A stretch of DNA of 64,000 bases from Lysobacterales bacterium. Lineage in GTDB: Bacteria > Pseudomonadota > Gammaproteobacteria > Xanthomonadales > SZUA-36. The notes beneath the pieces are model-generated. The model was not told the DNA's origin. It made no database searches and saw nothing but the letters and a program-made list of their open reading frames with translations. The stretch is taken from assembly GCA_011773845.1 (NCBI GenBank), contig WVWV01000037.1, forward strand, positions 7,033 through 71,032, read 5' to 3'. Positions 49,090 to 62,352 of this stretch are shown here, piece by piece. Every line of letters begins with the position of its first letter. The first letter of the stretch is position 1. The position numbers and the translations under genes were made by a program.

Positions 49090-49107
49090 TTTGAACGTTC
49101 GTTCAAA
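49090..49107. promoter_or_regulatory. TetR-type operator palindrome
   Basis: Perfect 18-base palindrome TTTGAACGTTCGTTCAAA apart from its GTTC centre (7-base arms TTTGAAC/GTTCAAA). It abuts the -10 of the tetR promoter and spans the predicted transcription start, so binding by the encoded TetR protein would repress its own operon. Confidence 0.75.
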
Positions 49108-49133
49108 TGCACTCGAATGCGGAAGCATGGCGC

Positions 49134-49760
49134 ATGGATACACGGCAAAAGATCATCGAGGCAGCGGCCCGCCTGTTCCACGAGCAGGGCTATGCGGCTA
49201 CCGGCATCGCCGCCATCCTGAAGGAGGCGGGCGTCAACGCGGGCAGCATGTACCATTATTTCGACGGCAAGGAAGCCCTGCTCGCAGAGGTGCTCGACTG
49301 GTACCGGGATAACCTGGTTCCCCGCATCATGAAGCCCATCGAGGCCGCGGAGCCCGACCCGCTCAGGCGGGTGTTCCGGCTGCTCGGGTGGTATCGGGAC
49401 TTCCTGGCCGAGCACGATTGTCGACTGGGCTGTCCCGTGGGCAACCTGGCACTGGAGGTTTCCGACACGCATCCGCAGCTGCGGGCGCGCCTGGGACGCA
49501 ACCTGGAACGCTGGTCGGGGCGCTTGCGGCTGTGGCTGGAGCAGGCGGCGGAGCGCCTGCCCCCGGACTGCGACCGCGACAGCCTGGCCCGTTTCGTGCT
49601 CACCGTGATGGAGGGGGCGGTGATGCAGGCGCGCACCGCCGGGTCGTTGCGTCCGTTCGACGAAGCGGTGGCGCAACTGCGCCGGCATTTTGCGGCCCTG
49701 GAGCGCGAGGCCGCGCGCGCCGCCGGCCCGAAGGCGCCGGCCATGGCGGTGAACGGATGA
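49134..49760 (+). CDS. TetR/AcrR family transcriptional regulator
   Basis: 208 residues from ATG 49134, chosen over 49107 because GGAAG lies eight bases upstream and 49107 sits in the operator. N-terminal HTH: KIIEAAARLFHEQGYAATGIAAILKEAGVNAGSMYHYFDGKEALL (split over about 5-50) is the classic TetR DNA-binding region. The C-terminal ligand domain has CRLGCPVGNLALEVSD, similar to the C-terminal domain of the TetR_C_16/YcdC-like groups. Sixteen bases before the RND gene; likely controls it. Confidence 0.9.
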   Translation: MDTRQKIIEAAARLFHEQGYAATGIAAILKEAGVNAGSMYHYFDGKEALLAEVLDWYRDNLVPRIMKPIEAAEPDPLRRVFRLLGWYRDFLAEHDCRLGCPVGNLALEVSDTHPQLRARLGRNLERWSGRLRLWLEQAAERLPPDCDRDSLARFVLTVMEGAVMQARTAGSLRPFDEAVAQLRRHFAALEREAARAAGPKAPAMAVNG

Positions 49761-49776: not shown

Positions 49777-52700
49777 GTGACCCTGACGCGCATTGCCCTG
49801 GGTAACCCGGTCGCGGTGGTGGTGGCCGGCATCCTGGTCGCCATCTTCGGACTGCTGAGCCTCATGCGGTTGCCGATCCAGATGGCGCCCGAACTGCAAC
49901 GCCCGCAAATCTCCATCAGCACCGGTTGGCGCGCCTCGGCGCCGGCCGAGATCGAGTCCGAAATCATCGAGCTGCAGGAACGCGTGCTGCGCAGCACGCC
50001 GAGCCTGCTGCGCATGGAATCGACGGCCAGTTTCGGGCGCGGCACCATCATTCTCGAATTCGCCATCGGTTCGGACATGGAGCGCGCGCTCATCGAGGTC
50101 ATGAATCGGCTCAACCAGGTGCCGCGCTACCCGGTGGATGCCGATGAGCCGGTCATCCGGGTTGGCAGTGACCAGTTCGAGCGCTCCATCGGCTGGTTCT
50201 CGGTGAAGACCGCACCGGGCAACGACAATCCCATTGAGTCGTACCAGGATTACGTCGACGAGTACATCATCACGCGGCTGGAACGCGTCGCGGGCGTGTC
50301 CTCGGTCGGCAGTTTCGGCGGGCGGGGACACGAAATCCGCATCACCTTCGACCCGTTCAAGGCCGCGAACATCGGGCTTGACCTGACCGGCGTATCCGCG
50401 GAGCTGGGCGCCAATGCCGACGTGTCGGGCGGCACCACCGAGATCGGCCGGCGGCAGTATACGCTTCGCTTCAGCGGCAAATACGAGATCCAGTCGCTGG
50501 GCGACCTGGTGCTGCAGTGGCGGGAAGGCCGGCCGGTGCGGCTCCGCGATATCGCCCGCATCGAAAAGCGCATGGTCGACCCCAGCACCATCCTGCACCA
50601 GAACGGCTCGCCATCGATGGGAATCGCGGTCACCCCCGAGTCCGGGGTCAACGTGCTGCAAGTGCTCGAGGACGTCAAGCAGGTTCACGAAGATCTGAAG
50701 GCCAACGAGCTCGCCCGCGCCGGGCTGGTCATGGAGCTGGTCTATGACCAGTCAGAGTACGTGCTCGATTCGATCACCATGGTGCGCAACAACCTGCTGC
50801 TGGGCATGAGCCTGGCGGTGGTGGTGCTGTGGTGGTTTCTCCGCAAGTTCCGGGCCACCGTCATGGTGGCCCTGGCGATACCGCTGTGCCTGTGCGCTGC
50901 CTTCATGGTGCTGGATTTCACCGGGCGCACCCTGAACATCATTTCCCTGGCTGGCCTGGCGTTCGCGACCGGCATGGTGCTGGATGCAGCGATTATCGTG
51001 CTGGAAAACATCTTCCGGCAGCGGGAGTCGGGTCGTGACGGCGCCGAGGCATCCGAGATCGGCACGCGGCAGGTCTGGGGCGCGCTGGTAGCCTCGACGG
51101 CAACCACGGTGGCGATCTTCATGCCCGTGGTGTTCCTGGAGGACGAGGCGGGACAGCTGTTCAGCGACCTGGCCATCACCATCTCGGCGGCGGTGGTGGC
51201 TTCCCTGCTGGTGGCGGTCACGGTGCTGCCCTCGGCGGCCGCCAACTGGGTGAAGGGCAAGGCCATCGAGGATCGACATCGCAGCTGGTGGCACTGGATT
51301 ACCCGGCACATCATGGAGTGGACGGGCACCCCGCGCCGGCGCTGGAGTATCGTGCTGGCGCTCACCATTACGCCCGTGTTGCTGGTGTTGCTGCTCAAGC
51401 CACCGGCCGATTACCTGCCGGAGGGCAGGCGCAACTGGATCAACGGGTTCCTGGTGGCACCGCCCGGCCTGGGCGTGGAGACCGCGGAGCGGGAGATGAT
51501 GGACGTCATCGACGCCCGGCTCCACCCCTACCTGCGTGACGGGCATCCGCTCCAGCTCAGGAATTACTATCTGGGTTCGGCGCCCGGTTTTGGCACCTTC
51601 ATTGGCGGCCGGGCCGTGGATCCCGCAAATGCGGACGCGCTGATCGACGCGCTGAACCGGGAAGTCCTGAGCGGATTCCCGGACACCTATGGGTTCGCAG
51701 GTCGCCGGGCGGTGTTCGGCGGTCACCGCGGCGGCCGGCAGATCAATGTCGACCTGCAGGCGGAATCGTTCGATTCATTGATCGCCGCGGGCCAGACGGG
51801 TTTCTTCGCCCTGATGCAGGCGATGCCGGGCGCCAACGTGCGGCCGCTGCCGGGCCTGGAGCTCGCAGAGCCCGAGCTGCGCCTGATACCCGATGACCGT
51901 CGCATCGCCGAGGTGGGCTGGAATCGCGCGCGCATGGCGACCGTGGTGCGGGCCATGGGCGATGGGGCCTTCCTGGGCGAATACTTTGACGGCACCCGGC
52001 GGTATAACGTGGTCCTGCGTGCCGAGGAGTGGTATACGCCCGAGGAACTGGCCTCCATCCCGGTCGCCACCGCCAGTGGCGAAGTCCAGGCGATTGGCGA
52101 ATTGGCCCAGCTGGTCCGGACCGCAGGCCCTTCCCAGATTCGCCGGGTCGACCGCCGGCGAACCCTGACCCTGCAGGTCACGCCCCCACGCGAGATGGCC
52201 ATCGAGGAGGCGCTCGACGTGGTGGAGGAACGGGTCCTGCCGGCCATGCGCGAATTGCTGCCCAGTGACGGCAGCATCCGGTTGCGCGGCACGGCGGAAG
52301 CCCTGGACGAGGCACTGGCCAGCATGAGCGGCAGCTTCGTGCTGGCGATCATTATCCTGTACCTGCTGATCTCGGCCCTGTTCCGATCGTTCCGGGATTC
52401 ACTGCTGGTCATCCTGACCATCCCGATGGCAACCGTGGGGGGCATCGCGTCGCTGCGCCTGATGGATCTCGTGCTGGCTTCCTCCGGCGGCCAGCAGATG
52501 GACGTGCTGACCATGATCGGTTTCGTCATCCTGCTGGGTCTGGTGGTCAACAACGCGATCCTGCTGGTGTACCGCGCGCGCGATGCTGAGCGCGAGGGCA
52601 TGGACCGGCGGGACGCGGTCGAAAGCGCGGTGCGCTTGCGCCTGCGGCCGATCCTGATGAGCACCATGACCAGTATTTTCGGCATGCTGCCGTTGATGGT

Positions 52701-52875
52701 GATCCCGGGTTCGGGCACGGAACTGTACCGGGGCATGGCCTCGGTGATCGTGGGCGGCATGTTGGTGAGCGCGCTGTTCACCCTGATTCTGCTGCCGAGC
52801 CTGTTGCGCATGCGCGAAGAACGCCGCCAGGCAGCCCGGGCACCCACCCCCATCCTGCAGGAGGGACTCACGTGA
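49777..52875 (+). CDS. RND efflux transporter permease subunit
   Basis: 1032-residue inner-membrane RND pump (AcrB/MdtB-like), twelve helices and two large periplasmic loops. TM4 reads GMVLDAAIIVLENI: Asp403 matches AcrB Asp407 but the following residue is Ala404 where AcrB has Asp408. TM10 reads GLVVNNAILLV with Asn925 in place of AcrB Lys940. Such variants are known in RND subgroups, so the proton path differs from AcrB. GTG start; it precedes its adaptor gene, the reverse of acrAB order. No TolC gene nearby. Substrate unknown. Confidence 0.9.
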   Translation: MTLTRIALGNPVAVVVAGILVAIFGLLSLMRLPIQMAPELQRPQISISTGWRASAPAEIESEIIELQERVLRSTPSLLRMESTASFGRGTIILEFAIGSDMERALIEVMNRLNQVPRYPVDADEPVIRVGSDQFERSIGWFSVKTAPGNDNPIESYQDYVDEYIITRLERVAGVSSVGSFGGRGHEIRITFDPFKAANIGLDLTGVSAELGANADVSGGTTEIGRRQYTLRFSGKYEIQSLGDLVLQWREGRPVRLRDIARIEKRMVDPSTILHQNGSPSMGIAVTPESGVNVLQVLEDVKQVHEDLKANELARAGLVMELVYDQSEYVLDSITMVRNNLLLGMSLAVVVLWWFLRKFRATVMVALAIPLCLCAAFMVLDFTGRTLNIISLAGLAFATGMVLDAAIIVLENIFRQRESGRDGAEASEIGTRQVWGALVASTATTVAIFMPVVFLEDEAGQLFSDLAITISAAVVASLLVAVTVLPSAAANWVKGKAIEDRHRSWWHWITRHIMEWTGTPRRRWSIVLALTITPVLLVLLLKPPADYLPEGRRNWINGFLVAPPGLGVETAEREMMDVIDARLHPYLRDGHPLQLRNYYLGSAPGFGTFIGGRAVDPANADALIDALNREVLSGFPDTYGFAGRRAVFGGHRGGRQINVDLQAESFDSLIAAGQTGFFALMQAMPGANVRPLPGLELAEPELRLIPDDRRIAEVGWNRARMATVVRAMGDGAFLGEYFDGTRRYNVVLRAEEWYTPEELASIPVATASGEVQAIGELAQLVRTAGPSQIRRVDRRRTLTLQVTPPREMAIEEALDVVEERVLPAMRELLPSDGSIRLRGTAEALDEALASMSGSFVLAIIILYLLISALFRSFRDSLLVILTIPMATVGGIASLRLMDLVLASSGGQQMDVLTMIGFVILLGLVVNNAILLVYRARDAEREGMDRRDAVESAVRLRLRPILMSTMTSIFGMLPLMVIPGSGTELYRGMASVIVGGMLVSALFTLILLPSLLRMREERRQAARAPTPILQEGLT

Positions 52876-53927
52876 ATACCACCTGGTGCAGGGTCGCCGC
52901 GGCGGTCTTGATGACCATCGGCCTCGGTGCGACCACAGCCACCCATGCGCAACAGGGCCCGCCCGCCAACGTGCGGGTGGATGTCGTGGCGATCCAGTCG
53001 ATGAGCTCGACCACGCTGGTGCCGGGCACGGTGATCAGCCGGAATGATGCCAACCTGGCCGCCGAGGTCGAGGGACGTCTGCTGAGCGTGGCCGAGGTGG
53101 GCACGCGGGTGGCCCGCAGTGAGGCCGTGGCCACCATCGAGGATACTGCCCTCAGGCTGCGGCAGTCCGAGCTCGAGGCCGAGGTCATGCGCGCCGAGGC
53201 GCGGCTGGTGTTCCTGGAGAGCGAGGAGCGGCGATTCGCCCGCCTGGCGGAATCCAACCTGGCCGCCGTGGCGCAGCTGGAGCAGACCCGGTCGGACCGG
53301 GAAGTCGCCAAGGGCGACTTGCAGGTGGCGAAGGCGCGGCTCGCCCAGAACCGCGACCTGCTGGCCCGCACGTCCATCACCGCGCCGTTCGACGGCGTTA
53401 TCGTGGAGCGCCTGATGATGCCCGGCGAGCGCGTCACCGAGGGCAGTGACGTGGTGCGGCTGGTAGACCAGGAACACCTGGAGGTGATCACCCGGGCGCC
53501 ATTGGAATATTACCGCTTCGTGCAGCCGGGGCTGCGGCTCGATCTGCGTGCCGGTGCCATGCTGGCGACGGGCGCCGTGCGCACCGTCGTCGCGGTGGGG
53601 GACGAGGACACCCACCAGTTCGAGTTGCGGCTCGATCTCGAGGCCGGCCTCTTTCCCGTCGGCCAGACCCTGCGGGTCTCGGTGCCGACTTCGGCCATGC
53701 AGGAGGTGCTGGTCGTGCACCGCGACGCCCTCGTGCTGCGCCCGGAGGGCATTTCCCTGTTCGTCATCGACGCCAACAACCAGGCGCGGCAGGTCAGCGT
53801 GACCACGGGGATCGGGTCGGGAGAACTGATCGAGGTCCGGGGCGCGGTTTCGGCCGGCGACCGGGTGGTCGTGCGCGGCAACGAGCGGCTGCGCCCGGGC
53901 CAGGCCGTGAACATCATCAGCGGCTAG
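52872..53927 (+). CDS. RND periplasmic adaptor (membrane fusion protein)
   Basis: 351 residues: Sec signal (cleavage near THAQQ, about residue 26), barrel/lipoyl halves (AAEVEGRLLSVAEVGTRVARSEAVATIED), a coiled-coil hairpin (about 92-165), lipoyl return (TSITAPFDGVIVERLMMPGERV) and a beta-barrel. Overlaps the RND stop by four bases (GTGA). Bridges the pump to an outer-membrane channel. Confidence 0.93.
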   Translation: MNTTWCRVAAAVLMTIGLGATTATHAQQGPPANVRVDVVAIQSMSSTTLVPGTVISRNDANLAAEVEGRLLSVAEVGTRVARSEAVATIEDTALRLRQSELEAEVMRAEARLVFLESEERRFARLAESNLAAVAQLEQTRSDREVAKGDLQVAKARLAQNRDLLARTSITAPFDGVIVERLMMPGERVTEGSDVVRLVDQEHLEVITRAPLEYYRFVQPGLRLDLRAGAMLATGAVRTVVAVGDEDTHQFELRLDLEAGLFPVGQTLRVSVPTSAMQEVLVVHRDALVLRPEGISLFVIDANNQARQVSVTTGIGSGELIEVRGAVSAGDRVVVRGNERLRPGQAVNIISG

Positions 53928-53987
53928 GCTGCGGCCGTCCCGGGCCCGGCAGGAGCGCACATACGCGATGGTCACAATGGGGGCGGC

Positions 53988-55331
53988 ATGAGCGAAGCGC
54001 TGCCGCCCGTTGGCGCGGATAACCGGCTCGAGCGGCTGATTCGCGTCCACCACGGTGAGTGGGGCCAGTTCCTGCTCGCGTTCGTCTACTTCTTCTTCCT
54101 GTTGGGAGGCTACTTCATGCTGCGGCCGCTGCGCGGTGCGGTGGCCGCCAACAACAGCGACATCCTGCACTGGCTGTACACGGCCACGTTCCTGGCGATG
54201 CTGCTGATCGTGCCGGTGTTCGGTTTCCTCGTCGCCCGCTATCGCCGCAGCCGCTTCATACCTGGCATCTACCTGTTCTTTGCCGGCAACCTGCTGCTGT
54301 TCATGGTGGCCTTCGACGGGGACACGACATCGCCCTGGGTGCAGCGCACTTTCTATGTGTGGCTGAGCGTGTTCAACCTGTTCGTGGTGTCCATTTTCTG
54401 GAGCTTCATGGCGGACATCTTCCGCCCGGGCCAGGCCCAGCGGCTGTTTGGCGCCATCATGGCGGGCGGCAGCCTCGGCGCCATCCTGGGTCCATTGGCC
54501 ACCGCCGGCCTGGTGAACGCGGCGGGCGTGCGCGGCGTCATGGGGGTCGCCACGGCTTGCCTGTTGATTGCCACCACGATGGCCGTCCTGTTGGGGCGCA
54601 GGGTGCGCCGGGAGCATGCGGGACGCCCCGCAGAGGTCATCGGGGGCAAGATTCTGGAGGGCGCCCTGCACGTGTTCCGCTCCCGCTACCTGCTGCTGGT
54701 GTGTCTGCTCATGCTGACCCACAACATGACCGCCACGTTCCTGTACAACGGCCTGGCTGTGCTGGTCGACCAGAACATTGCCGGATTCGGGCAGCGCACC
54801 GAGTTCTTCAGCTATGTCGATTTCGTGGTCCAGGTGCTGGCCTTCACGTTCCAGTTCTTCATCACCGCCCGCCTGGTGACGCACCTCGGCATGCCACGCA
54901 CGGCCATTCTCCCGCCGATACTGTTGGCCGGCAGCTTCGTCATTCTCGGCAGCGCCCTCGGGTTGGTGCTGTTTGCCGCGGTGCAGGTTGCGCAGCGGGC
55001 GCTGAATTACGGCCTGTTGGGCCCGCTCAAGGAGATGTTGTTCACGGTCGTGGACCGGGAAACCAAGTACAAGAGCAAGAACTTCATCGACACCGTCGTG
55101 TACCGTGGCAGCGACGTCACGGCCAGTTGGCTGTTCAAGGGCCTGATGGTGAGTGGTCTGCCCATGGCTGGCATCGTATGGTTCTACCTGCCCGTGCTGG
55201 TTCTGTGGGGGTGGGGTGCATGGCGCCTCGGCCGGCGTTACGAACAGCTCAGGGCTCAGGCGGAACGGTCCCTGAACGAAGGATGGAAGCGCGGGCCGGA
55301 GGGGGTGTCGATGGCCTCCACGGGGCACTGA
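53988..55331 (+). CDS. NTP/NDP exchanger-like (Npt/AAA family) MFS-type membrane protein
   Basis: 447 residues with about twelve helices. FLLGGYFMLRPLRGAVAANN (near 30-50) and LLGPLKEMLFTVVDRETKYKSKNFIDTVVYRGSD (near 340-375) resemble the Npt1/Npt2 and ATP:ADP antiporter-like family related to MFS. In obligate intracellular bacteria such proteins take nucleotides from the host; homologues in free-living proteobacteria have no assigned substrate. Sixty bases after the adaptor gene, on the same strand. Its last 76 bases overlap the convergent btuD-like gene. Confidence 0.7.
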   Translation: MSEALPPVGADNRLERLIRVHHGEWGQFLLAFVYFFFLLGGYFMLRPLRGAVAANNSDILHWLYTATFLAMLLIVPVFGFLVARYRRSRFIPGIYLFFAGNLLLFMVAFDGDTTSPWVQRTFYVWLSVFNLFVVSIFWSFMADIFRPGQAQRLFGAIMAGGSLGAILGPLATAGLVNAAGVRGVMGVATACLLIATTMAVLLGRRVRREHAGRPAEVIGGKILEGALHVFRSRYLLLVCLLMLTHNMTATFLYNGLAVLVDQNIAGFGQRTEFFSYVDFVVQVLAFTFQFFITARLVTHLGMPRTAILPPILLAGSFVILGSALGLVLFAAVQVAQRALNYGLLGPLKEMLFTVVDRETKYKSKNFIDTVVYRGSDVTASWLFKGLMVSGLPMAGIVWFYLPVLVLWGWGAWRLGRRYEQLRAQAERSLNEGWKRGPEGVSMASTGH

Positions 55332-56041
55332 TAGAGGCGCTGCAGGTTGGTGCTGGTCAACATGTCGGCGGCGGGTCCGGCCGCCCACTGACCGCCGCCG
55401 AATAGCATCAATACGTGGCTGCAATAGCATGCGGCCAGGTTGACATCGTGCATGGCGGCGATGGCCAGGCGCTCACCGCCGTAGACCAGGTCGCCGATGG
55501 TGCTCATGATCCTCACCTGATAGCGCAGGTCGAGGTGGTTGGATGGCTCGTCCAGCAGCATGACCTCGGGGTCCTGGACCAGCAATGAGGCAAATGCGAG
55601 GCGGCGGGCCTCACCACCCGAGAGACGCGTGACGTCACGGCCCTCGTAGCTGTCGAGATCGACCGCGCTCAGCGCCCGCCGCGCTCGCTCGAGCGCATCC
55701 GGTCCCTCCTGCTCCCAGCGTCCGAGATGAGGGTGCCGTCCGGTCAGGGCGGTTTGCAAAACCCCGGCTCCGAACACGTAGACCGAATGCTGTTGCAGCA
55801 TTCCGAGCCGTCGGGCCACCGCACGGCGCGGCAAGCCCAGAATCGGGGTACCCCCGAGCGCCACGTGACCGGACTGGGGCTCGATCAGGCCCGCCAGGCA
55901 CCGCATCAGCGTGGTCTTGCCAATGCCGTTGGCGCCCATCATGCCCCAGAACTGGCCAGGCATGAGCCGCAACGAACACCCCTTGACCACGGCCTTGCCG
56001 GCAATGCTCAGCTCGAGGGCGTGGCAATCCAGCGAGACCAT
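55256..56041 (-). CDS. btuD: FecE/BtuD-type ABC transporter ATP-binding protein
   Basis: 261 residues. Walker A GANGIGKTT (about 37-45), Q-loop LQQHSVYVF, signature LSGGEARR, Walker B VMLLDEPSNHLDL and switch His in AMHDVNLA are intact. Belongs to the iron-siderophore/cobalamin (FecCDE/BtuCD) importer class. Separated by three bases from the permease gene. A BtuB-like receptor at the window end makes cobalamin a reasonable guess; siderophore or heme cannot be excluded. Overlaps the convergent gene by 76 bases at its 3' end. Confidence 0.85.
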   Translation of the reverse strand: MVSLDCHALELSIAGKAVVKGCSLRLMPGQFWGMMGANGIGKTTLMRCLAGLIEPQSGHVALGGTPILGLPRRAVARRLGMLQQHSVYVFGAGVLQTALTGRHPHLGRWEQEGPDALERARRALSAVDLDSYEGRDVTRLSGGEARRLAFASLLVQDPEVMLLDEPSNHLDLRYQVRIMSTIGDLVYGGERLAIAAMHDVNLAACYCSHVLMLFGGGQWAAGPAADMLTSTNLQRLYQCPVEAIDTPSGPRFHPSFRDRSA

Positions 56042-56044
56042 GAT

Positions 56045-57028
56045 TCAGGCGGCGCGCAGGCGCGCGCGGTTCAGCAGCACCAGGAACAGGGGCACGCCCA
56101 GCAATGCCGTGATCACACCGACCGGCAACTGGCGCGGCGCGACGACCGTCCGGGCCAGCGTATCGGACAACACCAGGAACAATCCGCCGAACAGCGTGGC
56201 GGCGGGGATCAAAACGCGATGATCCGAGCCCATGAGCAGGCGCATCAGGTGCGGCACGATCAGGCCGACGAAACCGATGCTGCCGGCGATGGTGACGGCG
56301 GCCGCGGTCAGCAGCGAGGCCAGCAGGTACACCAGCCACAGCAATCCCCGGGTGGACTCTCCCAGCAGTTGGGCCGTGGTTTCGCCCATGGACAGCACGT
56401 TGAGGCTCCGGGCCAGACCGAGGGTCACCATGAACAGCAGGGCAAGCAGTGCCACCGACCAGGCTGGCAAGCGCGCATAGCTGAGATCACCCATCAGCCA
56501 GAACAGCATGCCGCGCACCGTACTGTCGGTTCCCAGGGCCAGCAACAGGCTGACCAGCGCGGCCCAGCCGGCGGCGGTGACCACCCCGGTCAGCAGCAGT
56601 CGCGTGCCGCTCCAGGGGCCACGCCCGCGGGCCAGGCCGAATACGATCACGATCGAGAGCATCGCCCCGGCCAGCGACAACGCGGGCGCTGCGCTCGCGG
56701 CCACGCCCAGCGTCATCCCCAGCAGCGCGGCGAACGCCGCGCCGCCAGAGACTCCCAGAATGTAAGGATCGGCCAGAGGGTTGCGGAGCAACACCTGCAT
56801 CAGGCAACCCGACATGGCCAACATCGCGCCCACGACCCAGGCGGCCACCGCGCGCGGCAATCGCAGCCGCCACAGCAATTCTCCACCCGGCGAATCGGGC
56901 TGCTGCCATGCCTGCCACCAGCTGGCCGTATCGAGCTCGGCGGAGCCGAGCCGGCTGGCCAGCACGATACTGGCGAGGGACAGTAGCGCCAGCAACGGGA
57001 TCACGATCCGTCGGGGTGCAGCGGGCAT
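56045..57028 (-). CDS. btuC: FecCD/BtuC-type ABC transporter permease
   Basis: 327 residues from ATG 57028 with about ten helices. LPRAVAAWVVGAMLAMSGCLMQVLLRNPLADPYILG (across about 57-92), IAGSIGFVGLIVPHLMRLL and PVGVITALLGVPLFLVLL are the FecCD signatures, with GxxGLxxPH the coupling region for the ATPase. The in-frame ATG at 57097 is less likely since the N-terminal basic stretch MPAAPRRIV fits a membrane start. No periplasmic binding protein (btuF) adjoins. Confidence 0.87.
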   Translation of the reverse strand: MPAAPRRIVIPLLALLSLASIVLASRLGSAELDTASWWQAWQQPDSPGGELLWRLRLPRAVAAWVVGAMLAMSGCLMQVLLRNPLADPYILGVSGGAAFAALLGMTLGVAASAAPALSLAGAMLSIVIVFGLARGRGPWSGTRLLLTGVVTAAGWAALVSLLLALGTDSTVRGMLFWLMGDLSYARLPAWSVALLALLFMVTLGLARSLNVLSMGETTAQLLGESTRGLLWLVYLLASLLTAAAVTIAGSIGFVGLIVPHLMRLLMGSDHRVLIPAATLFGGLFLVLSDTLARTVVAPRQLPVGVITALLGVPLFLVLLNRARLRAA

Positions 57029-57129
57029 GGTCGGGATGATTGGCAAGATCCGGGTGAATTGATTAACATTCTGCGCGTCGCACGCGCAAAGTATCACATG
57101 GCCCCACCTCGACCAACACAGCTGCCGAT

Positions 57130-57618
57130 ATGATCGACACGGACGGGTTCAGGCCCAACGTGGCCATCGTCATCATGAAGGAGGACAAACAGGTGTTCTG
57201 GGCCCAGCGGGCAAGCCAGGATGGCTGGCAGTTTCCGCAGGGCGGCATGCGGACGGACGAGACGCCCGTCGAGGCCATGTACCGGGAGTTGCACGAGGAG
57301 ACGGGGCTCCAGGCCGAGCACGTGGAGCTGCTGGGGCAGACGCCGGGATGGTTGCGCTATCGCTTGCCGCGACGCTACCAGCGGCAGCATCACAAGCCGC
57401 TCTGCATTGGCCAGAAGCAGGTATGGTTCCTGTTGCGAATGCTCACCGATGACTCCGCGTTCTCGCTGGACGTCGATGACAGCCCCGAATTCCTGGAATA
57501 CCGTTGGGTCGACTTCTGGTACCCGGTCGATAACGTGATTGCCTTCAAGCGCCGGGTGTATCGCCGCGCGCTCACCCTGCTCGAACCGATGGCGATGCGC
57601 CCCGAAGGCGCCGGCTGA
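57130..57618 (+). CDS. rppH: RNA pyrophosphohydrolase RppH
   Basis: 162-residue Nudix enzyme that removes pyrophosphate from mRNA 5' ends to trigger decay. [18 protein letters not shown] plus EETGL (about 38-60) is a full Nudix box, and [20 protein letters not shown] with GWQFPQGG are RppH features. Divergent from the permease gene by 101 bases. Confidence 0.95.
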
Positions 57619-57638
57619 TCCGCCGGCACCGGAAGCCT

Positions 57639-59048
57639 GTGGTGCGATACTGCCTGAAATCCTCGTTTGCGCTCGTTGTGGCGAGCGTGCTCGCCGCCTG
57701 CGAACCCGGCCCGCCGCAGCACGGGGAACTGACGCACACGGCTGCCCGCCTGCAGCGGGAGGCTTTGCGGGACGACCGGGCGTGGGAATTGGTGGAGTCG
57801 CTGGCCACCGAGATCGGGCCGCGCATGGCGGGCAGCGAGGGCGATCGCCGCGCGGTGGAGTGGGCCCGCCAGCGGTTCCTGGCATTGCAGTTCGACCGGG
57901 TGTGGCTGGAGCATGTTTCCTTTCCGTTGTGGCGCAGGCAGTCGGAGTCGGCGGCCCTGGTCTCGCCCGTGAATCAGCCACTGGCCGTGACCGCGCTGGG
58001 GGGCAGCCCCGGGACCGGTGGCCCGATCCGGGGCGAGGTGGTCCATTTTCCGGACCTGGCGGCACTGGAAGCGGCGGCGCCCGATTCCCTGGAAGGCAAG
58101 ATCGCGTTCATTTCACAGCGCATGCAGCGGACGCGGGACGGTTTGGGTTACATGGCCGCGGTTGACAAGCGCAGTCATGGCCCATTCGTGGCGGCCGAGC
58201 AAGGGGCCCTGGCGCTGTTGATCCGTTCGGTCGGCACCGATGCGGAAGGCCCGCCGCATACCGGGCAGATGTCCACTCAACGCGCCGGGGAACCGGTGCC
58301 CGCGGCGGCGCTGTCCAATGCCGATGCCGATCGGGTGGAAGAGATGCTGGCCGGCGGGCTGCCGGTGGTGATCACTCTCGACCTGGATTGCGGCTTCGAT
58401 GGCATGGGCGAGTCACGCAACGTGATCGGTGAGTTCGATGGCAGCGGCGATACCGGCGGTTTCGTCGTGGTGGGCGCCCATCTCGATTCCTGGGATCTTG
58501 GCACCGGCGCGGTCGACGACGGCAGTGGGGTGGCGATTACCATGGCCGCGGCCCGGCTGGTCGCCGAGCTTCCCGAGCGGCCGCGGCACGGCATACGGGT
58601 GGTGCTGTTTGCCAACGAGGAGCAGGGGGTGTACGGCGGCAAGGCATACGCCGCCGCACACCGTTCCGAGTGGGGTCGCCACGTGCTGGCGGCCGAATCG
58701 GACCTCGGTGCGGGGCGGATATGGAGTTTTAGGACACGGACCGCGGCCGATGCGCAGCCCGCCGTTCAGCAACTCGCGGACCTGTTGGCGCCGTTGGACA
58801 TTGCGTGGGATGCCGAGCGGCCGGCCTTCGGCGGTGCCGACCTGAGCCAGATGCGCAGGCTTGGCGTTCCGGTCGTCGACCTGCAACAGGACGCCAGCCG
58901 CTACTTTGACGTGCACCACAGCGCCAGCGATACCCTCGCGGCAGTCGATCCCGCGGATCTGCGCCAGAACGTGGCGGCCTGGGCAACCCTGATCTACTGG
59001 GCGGCCAGTTCGGACGTGGCTCTGGGGCCCATCGCGCCCACTCATTAG
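57639..59048 (+). CDS. M28-family zinc metallopeptidase lipoprotein
   Basis: 469 residues from GTG 57639. Signal peptide with lipobox VLAAC (Cys about residue 21). A PA (protease-associated) insertion occupies the middle (about 110-240), and the M28 catalytic domain has VVVGAHLDSWDLGTGAVDDGSG (His and bridging Asp), FANEEQG (general-base and ligand Glu), AAESDLGAG (Asp) and DVHHSASDTL (His). All five zinc ligands are visible. Probably a periplasmic aminopeptidase/carboxypeptidase anchored to a membrane. Confidence 0.92.
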   Translation: MVRYCLKSSFALVVASVLAACEPGPPQHGELTHTAARLQREALRDDRAWELVESLATEIGPRMAGSEGDRRAVEWARQRFLALQFDRVWLEHVSFPLWRRQSESAALVSPVNQPLAVTALGGSPGTGGPIRGEVVHFPDLAALEAAAPDSLEGKIAFISQRMQRTRDGLGYMAAVDKRSHGPFVAAEQGALALLIRSVGTDAEGPPHTGQMSTQRAGEPVPAAALSNADADRVEEMLAGGLPVVITLDLDCGFDGMGESRNVIGEFDGSGDTGGFVVVGAHLDSWDLGTGAVDDGSGVAITMAAARLVAELPERPRHGIRVVLFANEEQGVYGGKAYAAAHRSEWGRHVLAAESDLGAGRIWSFRTRTAADAQPAVQQLADLLAPLDIAWDAERPAFGGADLSQMRRLGVPVVDLQQDASRYFDVHHSASDTLAAVDPADLRQNVAAWATLIYWAASSDVALGPIAPTH

Positions 59049-59087
59049 TCGCATGCCGCGCGCCGCGGGCACCGCGGCGGCAGCGAT

Positions 59088-61394
59088 TCAGAAGTCCATC
59101 CGCGCGCCCAGGACCCAGGCTCGGCTCTTGCCTGGGCGGGCGCCGTAGGGCTGACGCGCGACGATGTCCAGCTCGCGGCTCAGGTTTTCAACCACCCCGT
59201 AGAGTTCCAGCCAGCCGTTGAGACGATAGTGCACGGCCAGGTCGAGGACGGTGGACGAATCGGTCTTCTCGTAGGTTCCGCAGCGGGCCTGGGTGCAAAC
59301 GCCGTTGTTGTGGCTGGCGCTCAGGTAGGTGGACCATCGATCGCGTTCGAGTCCCAGCGACAGGAATGCCTGGTGGTCCGGGATGTAGGGCACCGGGTCG
59401 CCGCGGTAGACGTCGCCGAAAAACTCGGAGTCGGCAATGTCGCTCTCGAACTCCGCGTTCATCCAGGTGTAGCTGAGGGTGAACGGCAGGCGAAAGGCCG
59501 CTGAGCGGGAGAAGTCATACTGCAGTTGCACCTCGAGGCCCGGGATTCTGACGGCATCGCCGTTGAATACATCGCCGACCTCGCAATCGCTGCCGGAAGA
59601 CGCGGTGCACACGCCCTGGAGGTTGTCGTAGTCGTTGAAAAACGCCATGACTTCCAGGTCCAGTCGCTCACCCGAATAGCGCAGCCCGGCCTCGTAATTG
59701 ATGCTCTCCTCCGGGTCGATGCCTGCCTTGTTGCCGGGCGCGCTGAAGCCCTTGTGGACCCCCGCGATCAGCAGGGTTCGGGCGGACCAGTCGTAGATCA
59801 CGCCCAATCCCGGGATCAGCACGTCTTCGGAGTTTTCGCGGCGACCCTTGACGTCTCCCGGACCGCGACCGGCCGGGTCATCGGGGTCGGCGCCGTAGTC
59901 GATGCGCGACTGGCGGATCGATTCCAGGCGCAGGCCGGGCGTCAGGGTCCAGCGGCCCAGTTCCAGCCGATCCTGAATATAGAGCGCCCAGGCCTCGGCG
60001 GCCTGGATCCGGTTGCCGGCGTCGCCTTCGCGGCCCAGGGCGCTGATCACCAGCGCGCCGTCGAGCTGCTGGAACGTGTCGTTGCGCTGCAGCCGGTCCT
60101 CTTCGTCCTCGTGCCAACGTATGCCGAACTGCAGCGTGTGCCGGGCCCGGCCGGTGTCCAATTGGTGGCTGAGGTCCGCCTGGATGCCGCGGGAAAAATA
60201 GCTGCGTGCATTGTTGCGGACCTGGATCGCACCGGCCGGGGTGTCGCCGCCGTCGAGGATGGCTTGCAATTGCCGCGCTGTGAGTCCGCCCAGCCCCCGG
60301 CCCAGGTTCACGGCCTCGATGACTGACGCCCATGAGGTGCGCTGAAATTCCCCGACATGGAGGCTGCCGTCGAAATCGATTCCCTCGGTCTTGTACCAGG
60401 CGCGCTCGAATTCATTGTGGTAGGCGGTGACGTCAAGGCGCGTGCGGTGGCCGGGTTCCAGCGACCATCGGGCCATGAGCTGTTCGTGATCGTTGTCCAT
60501 ATTGTCTAGAGCGGACACCCCGTAACGCCGGAGGGCATCACTCCGGAAATCGGCATCGGTCAGGCCCAGGTAGGTCTGGTTGGACTCCTCATCCGATTTC
60601 TGCACCTTGATTTCCAGACGCTGGAACACCTCAGCCGCGGGGTCGCTGCCCAGGCTGAACCTGGCCACGTAGTCGGCCTTCTGCAGGCCGGTGTCGCCCC
60701 GGTGATGGTCGATCCGCTGGAACCCGTCGGAGCGCCACTGGTGGGTCTCCAGCAGCCATCCGACCCGTTCGCCGGAGTCGCCATACCAGGCATGGGTGCG
60801 CCAGGTGCTGTCGGAGCCGCCTTCAACGCGCAGCAGGCCGCCGCGCTGGGCCGGAATGGGAGTGGACACCAGGTTGATCGCGCCGCCGATGGTATAGGGC
60901 CCCTGGGTGATGGCGGCCGGCCCCTTCATGACTTCCAGCGACTCGATGCGGCCAAAGGTCGGGAAGTAGTATGCCGCCGGCGCCGCATACGGGGCCGGCG
61001 CGATCAGCACGTTGTCCTCCAGCAGGGTAATGCGGCTGGACCGCTCGGTTGGGGTGCCGCGGATGCTGATATTGGGGCGCAGGCCAAAGCCGTCCTCCAG
61101 TTGGAAGGATGCGCCGGGCACACGCTGCAGCGCACGCATGACGTCGGTGGTGGCGAAGGATTCGAGCTCCGCGGGCGAAATCCGGCTGGCGCCGCCGGCC
61201 ACGTTGCGGGGATCCTGCGCGACGCCGAAGATGGTGACGGTTTCCATCTCGCGGCAGGGCGTGTCCTCGCCGCGGGCCGCGGCCTCGCGAAACTCATCCG
61301 GGCCGCATTCGGCGGCAAATCCGGGGCTGCTCAGCAAGACGAGGGCCATCCACAGGGCCGCACGGTCGAACCGGTGCCGCGCGCCGCGCGCCAT
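59088..61394 (-). CDS. FecA-like TonB-dependent outer-membrane receptor
   Basis: 768 residues from ATG 61394, selected for a good Shine-Dalgarno (GGGAA) and signal peptide (MARGARHRFDRAALWMALVL, cleavage near GFAA-E). A TonB-box-like ETVTIFG and a plug domain follow with LLEDNVLIAPAPYAAP and VMKGPAAITQGPYTIGGAIN, the FecA ferric-citrate signature stretch, then a 22-strand barrel ending in MDF. No N-terminal signalling (STN) domain or fecIR genes. Fur boxes lie in its promoter and leader. Ligand: ferric dicarboxylate-like, inferred. Confidence 0.88.
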   Translation of the reverse strand: MARGARHRFDRAALWMALVLLSSPGFAAECGPDEFREAAARGEDTPCREMETVTIFGVAQDPRNVAGGASRISPAELESFATTDVMRALQRVPGASFQLEDGFGLRPNISIRGTPTERSSRITLLEDNVLIAPAPYAAPAAYYFPTFGRIESLEVMKGPAAITQGPYTIGGAINLVSTPIPAQRGGLLRVEGGSDSTWRTHAWYGDSGERVGWLLETHQWRSDGFQRIDHHRGDTGLQKADYVARFSLGSDPAAEVFQRLEIKVQKSDEESNQTYLGLTDADFRSDALRRYGVSALDNMDNDHEQLMARWSLEPGHRTRLDVTAYHNEFERAWYKTEGIDFDGSLHVGEFQRTSWASVIEAVNLGRGLGGLTARQLQAILDGGDTPAGAIQVRNNARSYFSRGIQADLSHQLDTGRARHTLQFGIRWHEDEEDRLQRNDTFQQLDGALVISALGREGDAGNRIQAAEAWALYIQDRLELGRWTLTPGLRLESIRQSRIDYGADPDDPAGRGPGDVKGRRENSEDVLIPGLGVIYDWSARTLLIAGVHKGFSAPGNKAGIDPEESINYEAGLRYSGERLDLEVMAFFNDYDNLQGVCTASSGSDCEVGDVFNGDAVRIPGLEVQLQYDFSRSAAFRLPFTLSYTWMNAEFESDIADSEFFGDVYRGDPVPYIPDHQAFLSLGLERDRWSTYLSASHNNGVCTQARCGTYEKTDSSTVLDLAVHYRLNGWLELYGVVENLSRELDIVARQPYGARPGKSRAWVLGARMDF

Positions 61395-61420
61395 CGATCC
61401 GATTCCCAGGTGTTCTTTAT

Positions 61421-61435
61421 TGAGAATTGTTCTCA
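61421..61435. promoter_or_regulatory. Fur box 2, in the leader of the FecA-like receptor gene
   Basis: TGAGAATTGTTCTCA, a near-perfect 7-1-7 inverted repeat against the Fur consensus TGATAATNATTATCA. It lies just downstream of the predicted receptor transcription start (about 61440). Confidence 0.75.
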
Positions 61436-61446
61436 TTTGATATGCA

Positions 61447-61475
61447 ATTCTAGCGGGCCTTAACGTAATTGACAA
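61447..61475 (-). promoter_or_regulatory. sigma70 promoter of the FecA-like receptor gene
   Basis: Minus strand TTGTCA (61475-61470), a 17-base spacer, and TAGAAT (61452-61447); each hexamer is 5/6 of consensus. Confidence 0.75.
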
Positions 61476-61496
61476 TCATTCTCATTTGCATTTAAA
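61469..61496 (+). promoter_or_regulatory. sigma70 promoter of bfd
   Basis: Consensus TTGACA (61469-61474), a 16-base spacer, and TTTAAA (61491-61496). Its -35 shares bases with the -35 of the divergent receptor promoter. Confidence 0.6.
61470..61484. promoter_or_regulatory. Fur box 1, shared by the divergent receptor and bfd promoters
   Basis: TGACAATCATTCTCA; its complement TGAGAATGATTGTCA matches the Fur 7-1-7 consensus at 13 of 15 positions. It covers the -35 element of both promoters. Confidence 0.85.
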
Positions 61497-61517
61497 CTGA
61501 AAATCGTTCGGCACACA

Positions 61518-61531
61518 TTGACCTGCATCAA
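61518..61531. promoter_or_regulatory. FNR/Anr-like site upstream of bfd
   Basis: TTGAC-CTGC-ATCAA differs from the FNR consensus TTGAT-N4-ATCAA at one position. It lies between the predicted bfd transcription start (about 61503) and the ATG at 61541, a place where binding would be expected to repress. Confidence 0.5.
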
Positions 61532-61540
61532 CCAACGTCC

Positions 61541-61750
61541 ATGTACGTATGCATCTGCAAGGCAGTCACGGAGTCGCAAATCCGCCAGGCGGTGGCGGAG
61601 GGTGCGCGTGACCTGAAGCAACTGCGGGCCGCCACCGGTTGCAGCAGCAAATGTGGATGCTGTCTGGAGACTGCACAGGCTGTCCTGGTCGATGAACTCA
61701 GGGCGCGGGGAACATTCCTGCGCGTGGTGGGTACGATCGACGCCGCCTGA
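61541..61750 (+). CDS. bfd: bacterioferritin-associated ferredoxin
   Basis: 69-residue 2Fe-2S protein that docks on bacterioferritin and reduces its ferric core to release iron. Cys4, Cys6, Cys38 and Cys41 match the cluster ligands of E. coli Bfd; two extra cysteines (34, 40) are present. Start ATG 61541. Predicted to be Fur-repressed, matching its role when iron is scarce. Followed by the bfr gene 134 bases downstream. Confidence 0.94.
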
Positions 61751-61779
61751 CCTGTCGCGAACTCCGATTACCTCTCAAA

Positions 61780-61794
61780 TCGGAATCATTCTCA
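61780..61794. promoter_or_regulatory. weak Fur box 3, upstream of bfr
   Basis: TCGGAATCATTCTCA; the right arm matches the Fur consensus well, the left arm poorly. A -10-like TAGAAT (61821-61826) lies downstream but lacks a clear -35. Confidence 0.45.
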
Positions 61795-61884
61795 TTTCAC
61801 CATCGAATTGATGCATTCGTTAGAATGTTTCGGCTCTGCGGCCGCCGCGGCCGCTCGAATCCCTGTGAGAGGAGGAACAAAGCC

Positions 61885-62352
61885 ATGAAAGGCGACGGCA
61901 AGGTCATTGAATTCCTCAATGGAGTGCTGCGTAACGAATTGACCGCAATCAACCAGTATTTCCTGCATTCGCGCATGTTCAAGGACATGGGGTTGAAGGA
62001 ACTCGCCGACTACGAGTTCGGGGAATCAATGGACGAGATGAAGCATGCCGACACGCTGGTGGAGCGGATTCTGTTTCTCGAGGGCCTGCCGAACATGCAG
62101 GACATCGGCAAGATCATGATCGGCGAGCATCCGCGGGAGATGCTGGAGTGCGACCTGAGCCTGGAGATGAAGGCCATCCCCCTGCTGCGCGAGGCCATTG
62201 AGCATTGCGAGGCGTGCAACGACTTCGTCAGCCGTGAGTTGTTCGAATCGATCCTCGATTCCGAGGAGGAACATGTCGACTGGCTGGAGACCCAGTTGGA
62301 ACTGATCGACAAGATCGGGATCGAGAATTACCTGCAGGCCAAAATGGGCTGA
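61885..62352 (+). CDS. bfr: bacterioferritin
   Basis: 155-residue subunit of the 24-mer iron store. Ferroxidase ligands Glu18, Glu51, His54, Glu94, Glu127 and His130 are all present, and Met52 supplies the heme ligand, so this is a heme-binding, ferroxidase-competent subunit. Strong AGAGGAGG ribosome site before ATG 61885. Physical linkage to bfd is conserved. Confidence 0.97.

Follow-up and report, generated by a model that had tools for sequence, protein, structure and literature searches.

The window analysed here is a 64,000-nt stretch of DNA, and the open reading frame of interest occupies positions 53988–55331 of its forward strand. The frame starts with ATG and encodes 447 amino acids, at the same coordinates and on the same strand as the sequence-only reading had given. 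From its sequence, profile searches, predicted fold and residue alignments, the product is described as an NTT-related carrier of the MFS fold. Upstream and on the same strand lie a TetR-type regulator (49107–49760; assigned from Pfam and the open reading frame list), an RND permease of the AcrB/AcrD/AcrF type (49777–52875, 1032 aa) and an RND periplasmic adaptor (52872–53927, 351 aa). The adaptor gene overlaps the permease gene by 4 nt and ends 60 nt before the carrier, so the earlier observation that the carrier follows an RND pump and adaptor on one strand holds. On the other side, a convergent gene for an ABC ATPase (55256–56041, reverse strand; a relative at another locus, L052, matches ABC_tran) overlaps the 3′ end of the carrier by 76 nt (55256–55331). 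This ABC ATPase is a neighbour and stands outside the proposed unit. An overlap greater than zero between the two genes is present in 19 of 29 family loci and measures 31 nt in six, while the large value at L156 is doubtful. The stretch 55256–62352 holds the ABC ATPase, a FecCD-type permease, a TonB receptor and a bacterioferritin-like frame, with NUDIX and peptidase-like frames between them. With labels assigned by eye, it looks like an iron or cobalamin uptake block, and many family loci share portions of it in synteny.

A homologue of the carrier (E ≤ 0.001) was found in 53 of the 61 whole genomes searched, its own included, which identifies the frame as a real gene and not a chance one. 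These comprise 35 of 37 genomes of the same bacterial family and 18 of 24 other genomes of the order. The two same-family genomes without a homologue are 77% and 60% complete, and the best copies in 33 other genomes of the family are 52–78% identical to the carrier. The host genome itself (2.7 Mb, 165 contigs, 90% complete) contains genes for PurH, CTP synthase and the ATP synthase alpha subunit. This gene content makes a life on imported ATP unlikely and is in line with a host that is not an energy parasite.

The sequence-only reading had likened the protein to the Npt-type NTP/NDP exchangers. These belong to the known NTT/AAA family (TC 2.A.12; Pfam TLC, PF03219; NCBIfam TIGR00769), which includes Rickettsia Tlc, Chlamydia Npt/NTT1 and plant AtNTT1. 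For the single carrier sequence the likeness is weak. The Pfam model MFS_1 scores 54.2 bits (cut-off 33.4), whereas TLC scores 21.8 bits, barely above its gathering score of 21, and its best stretch covers only residues 327–390. Against TIGR00769 the carrier reaches 13.7 bits, where the cut-off is 387.2, and a phmmer search of the PDB gave an NTT match at an E-value of only 0.24. Three relatives scored 25.5 (L081), 38.1 (L064) and 14.1 bits (L078) with TLC, the last falling below the gathering score. A six-frame search of the host genome with PF03219 (E ≤ 0.001) gave no match, and neither did its controls.

Profiles made the likeness strong. A scan of genome contigs with a 14-row alignment confirmed at least 548 relatives. 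The best 80 of these were retained, and they represent Gamma-, Beta- and Alphaproteobacteria, delta-type lineages, Nitrospira, Nitrospinota, Bacteroidota and a planctomycete. The window protein and 63 of these 80 relatives were combined in a 64-row alignment, which omits the other 17, ten of them from Nitrospira, for size. Searched against the PDB, the resulting profile matched CpNTT1 of Chlamydia (E = 2.7e-15) and AtNTT1 of Arabidopsis (E = 9.5e-14), both over their full length. The sole other match at E ≤ 1 was partial, to the oxalate:formate antiporter (1.3e-5). An hhalign comparison against four rows of canonical NTTs, including one truncated by the end of its locus, gave a probability of 98.9% and an E-value of 1.4e-17 over 415 columns. 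For all 64 members, NTT-type rows (three canonical and two NTT-HEAT) outscored every MFS protein sampled from the host genome (21 loci, some overlapping), a comparison that also drew on the PDB. The carrier thus did not fall inside an ordinary MFS drug or sugar family, as judged against this 21-locus sample.

The rows nearest of all to the 64 members are single-domain proteins from genomes outside the class, here called group B. With the family profile, NTT-type proteins score 43–94 bits, groups B and C score 109–215 bits and the best MFS protein of the host genome scores 9.4 bits. The Pfam scores of the same proteins form a graded series. A canonical NTT (L021) scores 600 bits with TLC and 13 with MFS_1, a group C protein (L025) 46 and 27, and a group B protein (L040) 37 and 23. 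In this series the window family lies on the MFS side. Use of a rapidly built tree, with SH-aLRT support and no bootstrap, was confined to groups inside the carrier family; its NTT and HEAT branches are very long, the outgroup does not form one side of a branch and long-branch attraction is a risk.

Structure prediction, which had been put forward with the sequence-only reading, agreed with the profiles. AlphaFold2 run on the 64-row alignment returned a model with a pLDDT of 92.6 and a pTM of 0.90. In a Foldseek search of the PDB with this model, NTTs took ranks 1–4 and a fifth NTT chain was ranked 13. VIA-align gave Z scores of 37.9, 37.3 and 34.4 for AtNTT1 and CpNTT1, and LacY came next at 29.5. 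The top match was to AtNTT1 (Z 37.9, rmsd 2.6, 410 residues), with CpNTT1 at 34.4. The structural matches listed for the model are transporters of the MFS fold. As predicted, the carrier has the fold of the solved NTTs, which are its best matches (Z 34–38).

The carrier resembles the NTT/AAA proteins in fold, in its full-length alignment, in an R-x-x-R/K motif in TM1, and in P-x-x-E and K-x-K-...-D-...-R stretches in the C half. It differs from them in that four charges linked to transport are replaced, in lying far under the TIGR00769 cut-off, in being about 70 residues shorter than three canonical open frames and in its gene neighbours. In addition, it scores above the MFS_1 cut-off, which the canonical NTTs L021 and L022 do not reach. 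It shares a free-living setting and an NTT-type core with the NTT homologues and NTT-HEAT fusion proteins that Major et al. (2017) described. Two NTT-HEAT proteins, L027 and L030, both carry HEAT_2 and TLC in Pfam and match the family profile at 45 and 94 bits. Unlike these fusions, the carrier is single-domain, with no HEAT or cNBD. It shares with MFS proteins in general the two-domain MFS fold and a score above the MFS_1 cut-off, but NTTs are nearer to it than are the MFS proteins of its own genome.

The substrate site was compared through residues K155, E245, E385 and K527 of AtNTT1. PMC4256464 describes these as strongly conserved in bacteria and important for transport. According to PMC3306366, AtNTT1 K155E abolishes binding of ADP and ATP, K527E abolishes ATP binding while ADP binding remains, and E245K leaves a protein that binds nucleotide and hardly exchanges it. 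The AtNTT1 residues were placed on the solved chain with one consistent offset, by eye on the alignments. In a 99-row alignment, the carrier equivalents of the four residues are Y64, S127, Y253 and D376. None of the 77 family rows (the window protein, 63 relatives, eight paralogues and five relatives from the order) matches the NTTs at any of these positions, and D376 is present in all 77. All four charges are kept in the three canonical NTT rows. Group C (eight rows) has E at 385 and K or R at 527, with W and D at the other two positions, and group B (nine rows) keeps only E385. The number of these charges thus falls along the superfamily. Both hhalign and MAFFT put the four residues in the same places and the HMMER alignment, as read by eye, fits them; at several of the residues compared, alignment of the two HEAT rows is poor. 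These substitutions, together with the TIGR00769 score, rule out membership of the canonical ATP/ADP exchangers.

Other charged residues are common to the carrier family and the NTTs: R46, R or K at position 49, K362, K364 (most rows), E349 (most rows), R373 and D368, the last counted in 75 of 77 family rows. The TM1 motif R46-x-x-R49 (54123–54134, forward strand) aligns with the R and K of the NTT LRDTKD stretch. In the C half, K360-Y-K-x-K-...-D368-...-R373-x-x-D376 (55065–55115, forward strand) aligns with the NTT pattern K-x-K-x-K-...-D-...-R-x-x-K527, with D376 replacing K527. These shared basic residues could have a structural role instead of contacting the substrate.

Taken together, the protein is probably an inner-membrane secondary carrier of the MFS fold, on a branch beside NTT/AAA, with a small anionic metabolite other than ATP/ADP as its likely cargo. 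Transport would proceed by alternating access between the two halves. R46 and R49 in TM1 and K360, K362, K364 and R373 in the C half would bind an acidic group of the cargo. D376, standing where the ATP-contacting lysine was, may act as a proton or ion-pair partner. An anionic metabolite is read from the kept basic residues and the mixed gene neighbours, and recurrent oxidoreductase genes beside the relatives suggest a sugar acid or carbonyl compound. The higher MFS_1 score of the single sequence (54 against 21.8 bits for TLC) counts against this assignment, and so does the ADP binding that AtNTT1 retains with the K527E change.

We give a small but real chance to a true nucleotide carrier, which would move NDP, NAD or another nucleotide and draw its specificity from other residues, like divergent microsporidian NTTs. 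Full-length homology to NTTs, the closest fold and the retained RxxR/K and KxK...D...R stretches argue for it. According to PMC4256464, microsporidian ThNTT1 and ThNTT3 have I155, N or V at 245 and Y385, yet in E. coli both move ATP, GTP, ADP and GDP. Loss of three of the four residues, as in these two proteins, thus does not exclude nucleotides. The fourth, K527, is not among the changes reported there, and in the carrier it is Asp. PamNTT4, which falls outside the main NTT clade, is a NAD carrier according to PMC5381601. Against nucleotide transport stand the change of all four positions in every one of the 77 rows, where the lysine that contacts ATP (PMC3306366) gives way to a residue of opposite charge, the failure to reach the TIGR00769 cut-off, and the PurH, CTP synthase and ATP synthase genes of the host. 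The sequence-only reading had left a choice between a nucleotide transporter and a remote relative with another substrate. The residues favour the second and speak against the first, although the microsporidian NTTs transport with three of them changed.

The family has 33 other orthologues of full or nearly full length, and gene neighbourhoods were counted at 32 of them, leaving out one on a 3.8-kb contig. The adaptor lies directly upstream of the carrier in 28 of the 32 loci and the RND permease upstream in 26. In those 26 the order RND, adaptor, carrier runs on one strand, with gaps of 2–170 nt between match ends. At L135 and L151 the missing permease coincides with a contig end. The TetR-type regulator has a match at only one of the 32 loci (L162). 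By strand and spacing, the carrier probably shares a transcript with the RND and adaptor genes in its own bacterial family. An accessory role to the pump, in which the carrier performs the inner-membrane step that hands pump cargo to the periplasm as a drug- or lipid-efflux partner, would fit this arrangement but appears unlikely. Four of the 32 loci (L148, L155, L157 and L158) keep the carrier with neither RND nor adaptor genes, the usual upstream M48 or GMC gene lying 0.1–1.3 kb away. The pump genes are thus not needed by the carrier, and an obligate RND accessory is rejected; the link is real yet not obligate. Moreover, the block around the carrier is syntenic in general, so adjacency to the RND genes may be plain inheritance, and other neighbours prevail outside the bacterial family of the window.

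Elsewhere the carrier has a different partner. Directly behind it lies an aldo/keto reductase gene in 39 of 69 loci outside the window clade, in several phyla (L061–L130; for example L090, L096 and L061). Cultured species with this pair include Ekhidna lutea (L090) and Methylohalomonas lacus (L076). In the window clade, none of the eight loci with room downstream has one. The count required at least 700 nt downstream, which dropped one of 70 loci outside the clade and two of ten within it. By a rough Tat criterion, the presence of an RR-x-hydrophobic motif close to the start, 35 of the 39 paired reductases are positive. D-Y-K-H, which we take to be the catalytic tetrad of aldo/keto reductases, is intact in all 32 aligned partners. 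Paralogues in the family of the window are paired with a reductase at five of eight loci, with the carrier at L166 lying at a contig end. Two aldo/keto reductases were found in the host genome, which by estimate would put the adjacency far above chance. Neither lies on the contig of the window, and they match the paired reductases at only about 25–29%. With the 0/8 count in the clade, a reductase partner in the window itself is rejected. In the tree, the nearest other clade consists of three Bacteroidota rows (SH-aLRT 95) with the reductase. Of the 69 rows labelled on this tree, 43 carry the pair, and at least 13 changes are needed to account for them, so the pairing has appeared or disappeared repeatedly.

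These pairings raise a further reading. The clade could form a functionally separate branch of the NTT superfamily and act together with redox enzymes of the periplasm, its cargo being NAD(P)(H) or the carbonyl or sugar-acid substrate of a Tat-exported reductase encoded just behind; the window lineage would lack the reductase and have its carrier in an RND operon. We regard this as quite doubtful. Plasmid-borne relatives in cultured bacteria have an aldo/keto reductase as neighbour once (Pantoea) and SDR and SMP-30 genes once (Azotobacter); two others lie beside unrelated genes, and one record is unannotated there. The annotated ones bear the name 'MFS transporter'. That name, and the dominance of MFS_1 over TLC in the single sequence, reversed in canonical L021, would suit an ordinary MFS drug or sugar porter with merely superfamily-wide NTT resemblance, but such a porter is very improbable and is rejected as better kin, since all 64 members are nearer NTT-type proteins (43–94 bits, against 9.4 for the best MFS match in a sample of 21 loci from one genome) and NTT structures lie some 5–8 Z units above LacY for the predicted model.

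The preferred assignment, a carrier beside NTT/AAA with a small anionic cargo, bears on how such genes are read. An NTT-type sequence is often taken to indicate an energy parasite. Among 398 genomes sampled from the phylum, only three, of 1.2–1.4 Mb, have a protein above the TIGR00769 cut-off. The carrier's branch occurs widely in free-living bacteria. A large sister branch of free-living organisms that lacks the nucleotide-handling charges helps to show how ATP/ADP exchange arose from, or alongside, ordinary MFS transport, and warns that such genes should not be called 'NTP/NDP exchangers'. Because relatives are repeatedly paired with an aldo/keto reductase bearing a Tat-like signal, there is a concrete handle on the substrate.

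The sequence-only reading is partly supported overall. It had treated a free-living setting as unexpected for an NTT homologue; Major et al. (2017, PMC5381601) had already described NTT genes from free-living bacteria, so this premise is not new and the setting is unsurprising. That study covers 377 sequences, which may include the carrier's clade; a term search of the main text returned no 'MFS', 'major facilitator', 'aldo' or 'K527'. Our literature search, thin on subscription journals, found no functional work on the carrier's branch and no paper on its pairing with aldo/keto reductases. Beyond the NTTs already known from free-living bacteria, there remain a wide sister branch without nucleotide-handling charges and the unexplained reductase pairing in other lineages.

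Some minor features of the locus and its orthologues were also recorded. A 1235-aa antisense frame (51723–55430, reverse strand) runs opposite the carrier and adaptor genes and the 3′ portion of the permease gene, and is probably a high-GC shadow frame. The orthologue at L145 (genome G024; the same gene as at L017) is broken by a stop about 195 codons into the match, either a decayed copy or an assembly error. Downstream of the carrier at L160 (genome G023) lies a second, partial carrier-like stretch of 77 aa with 44% identity.
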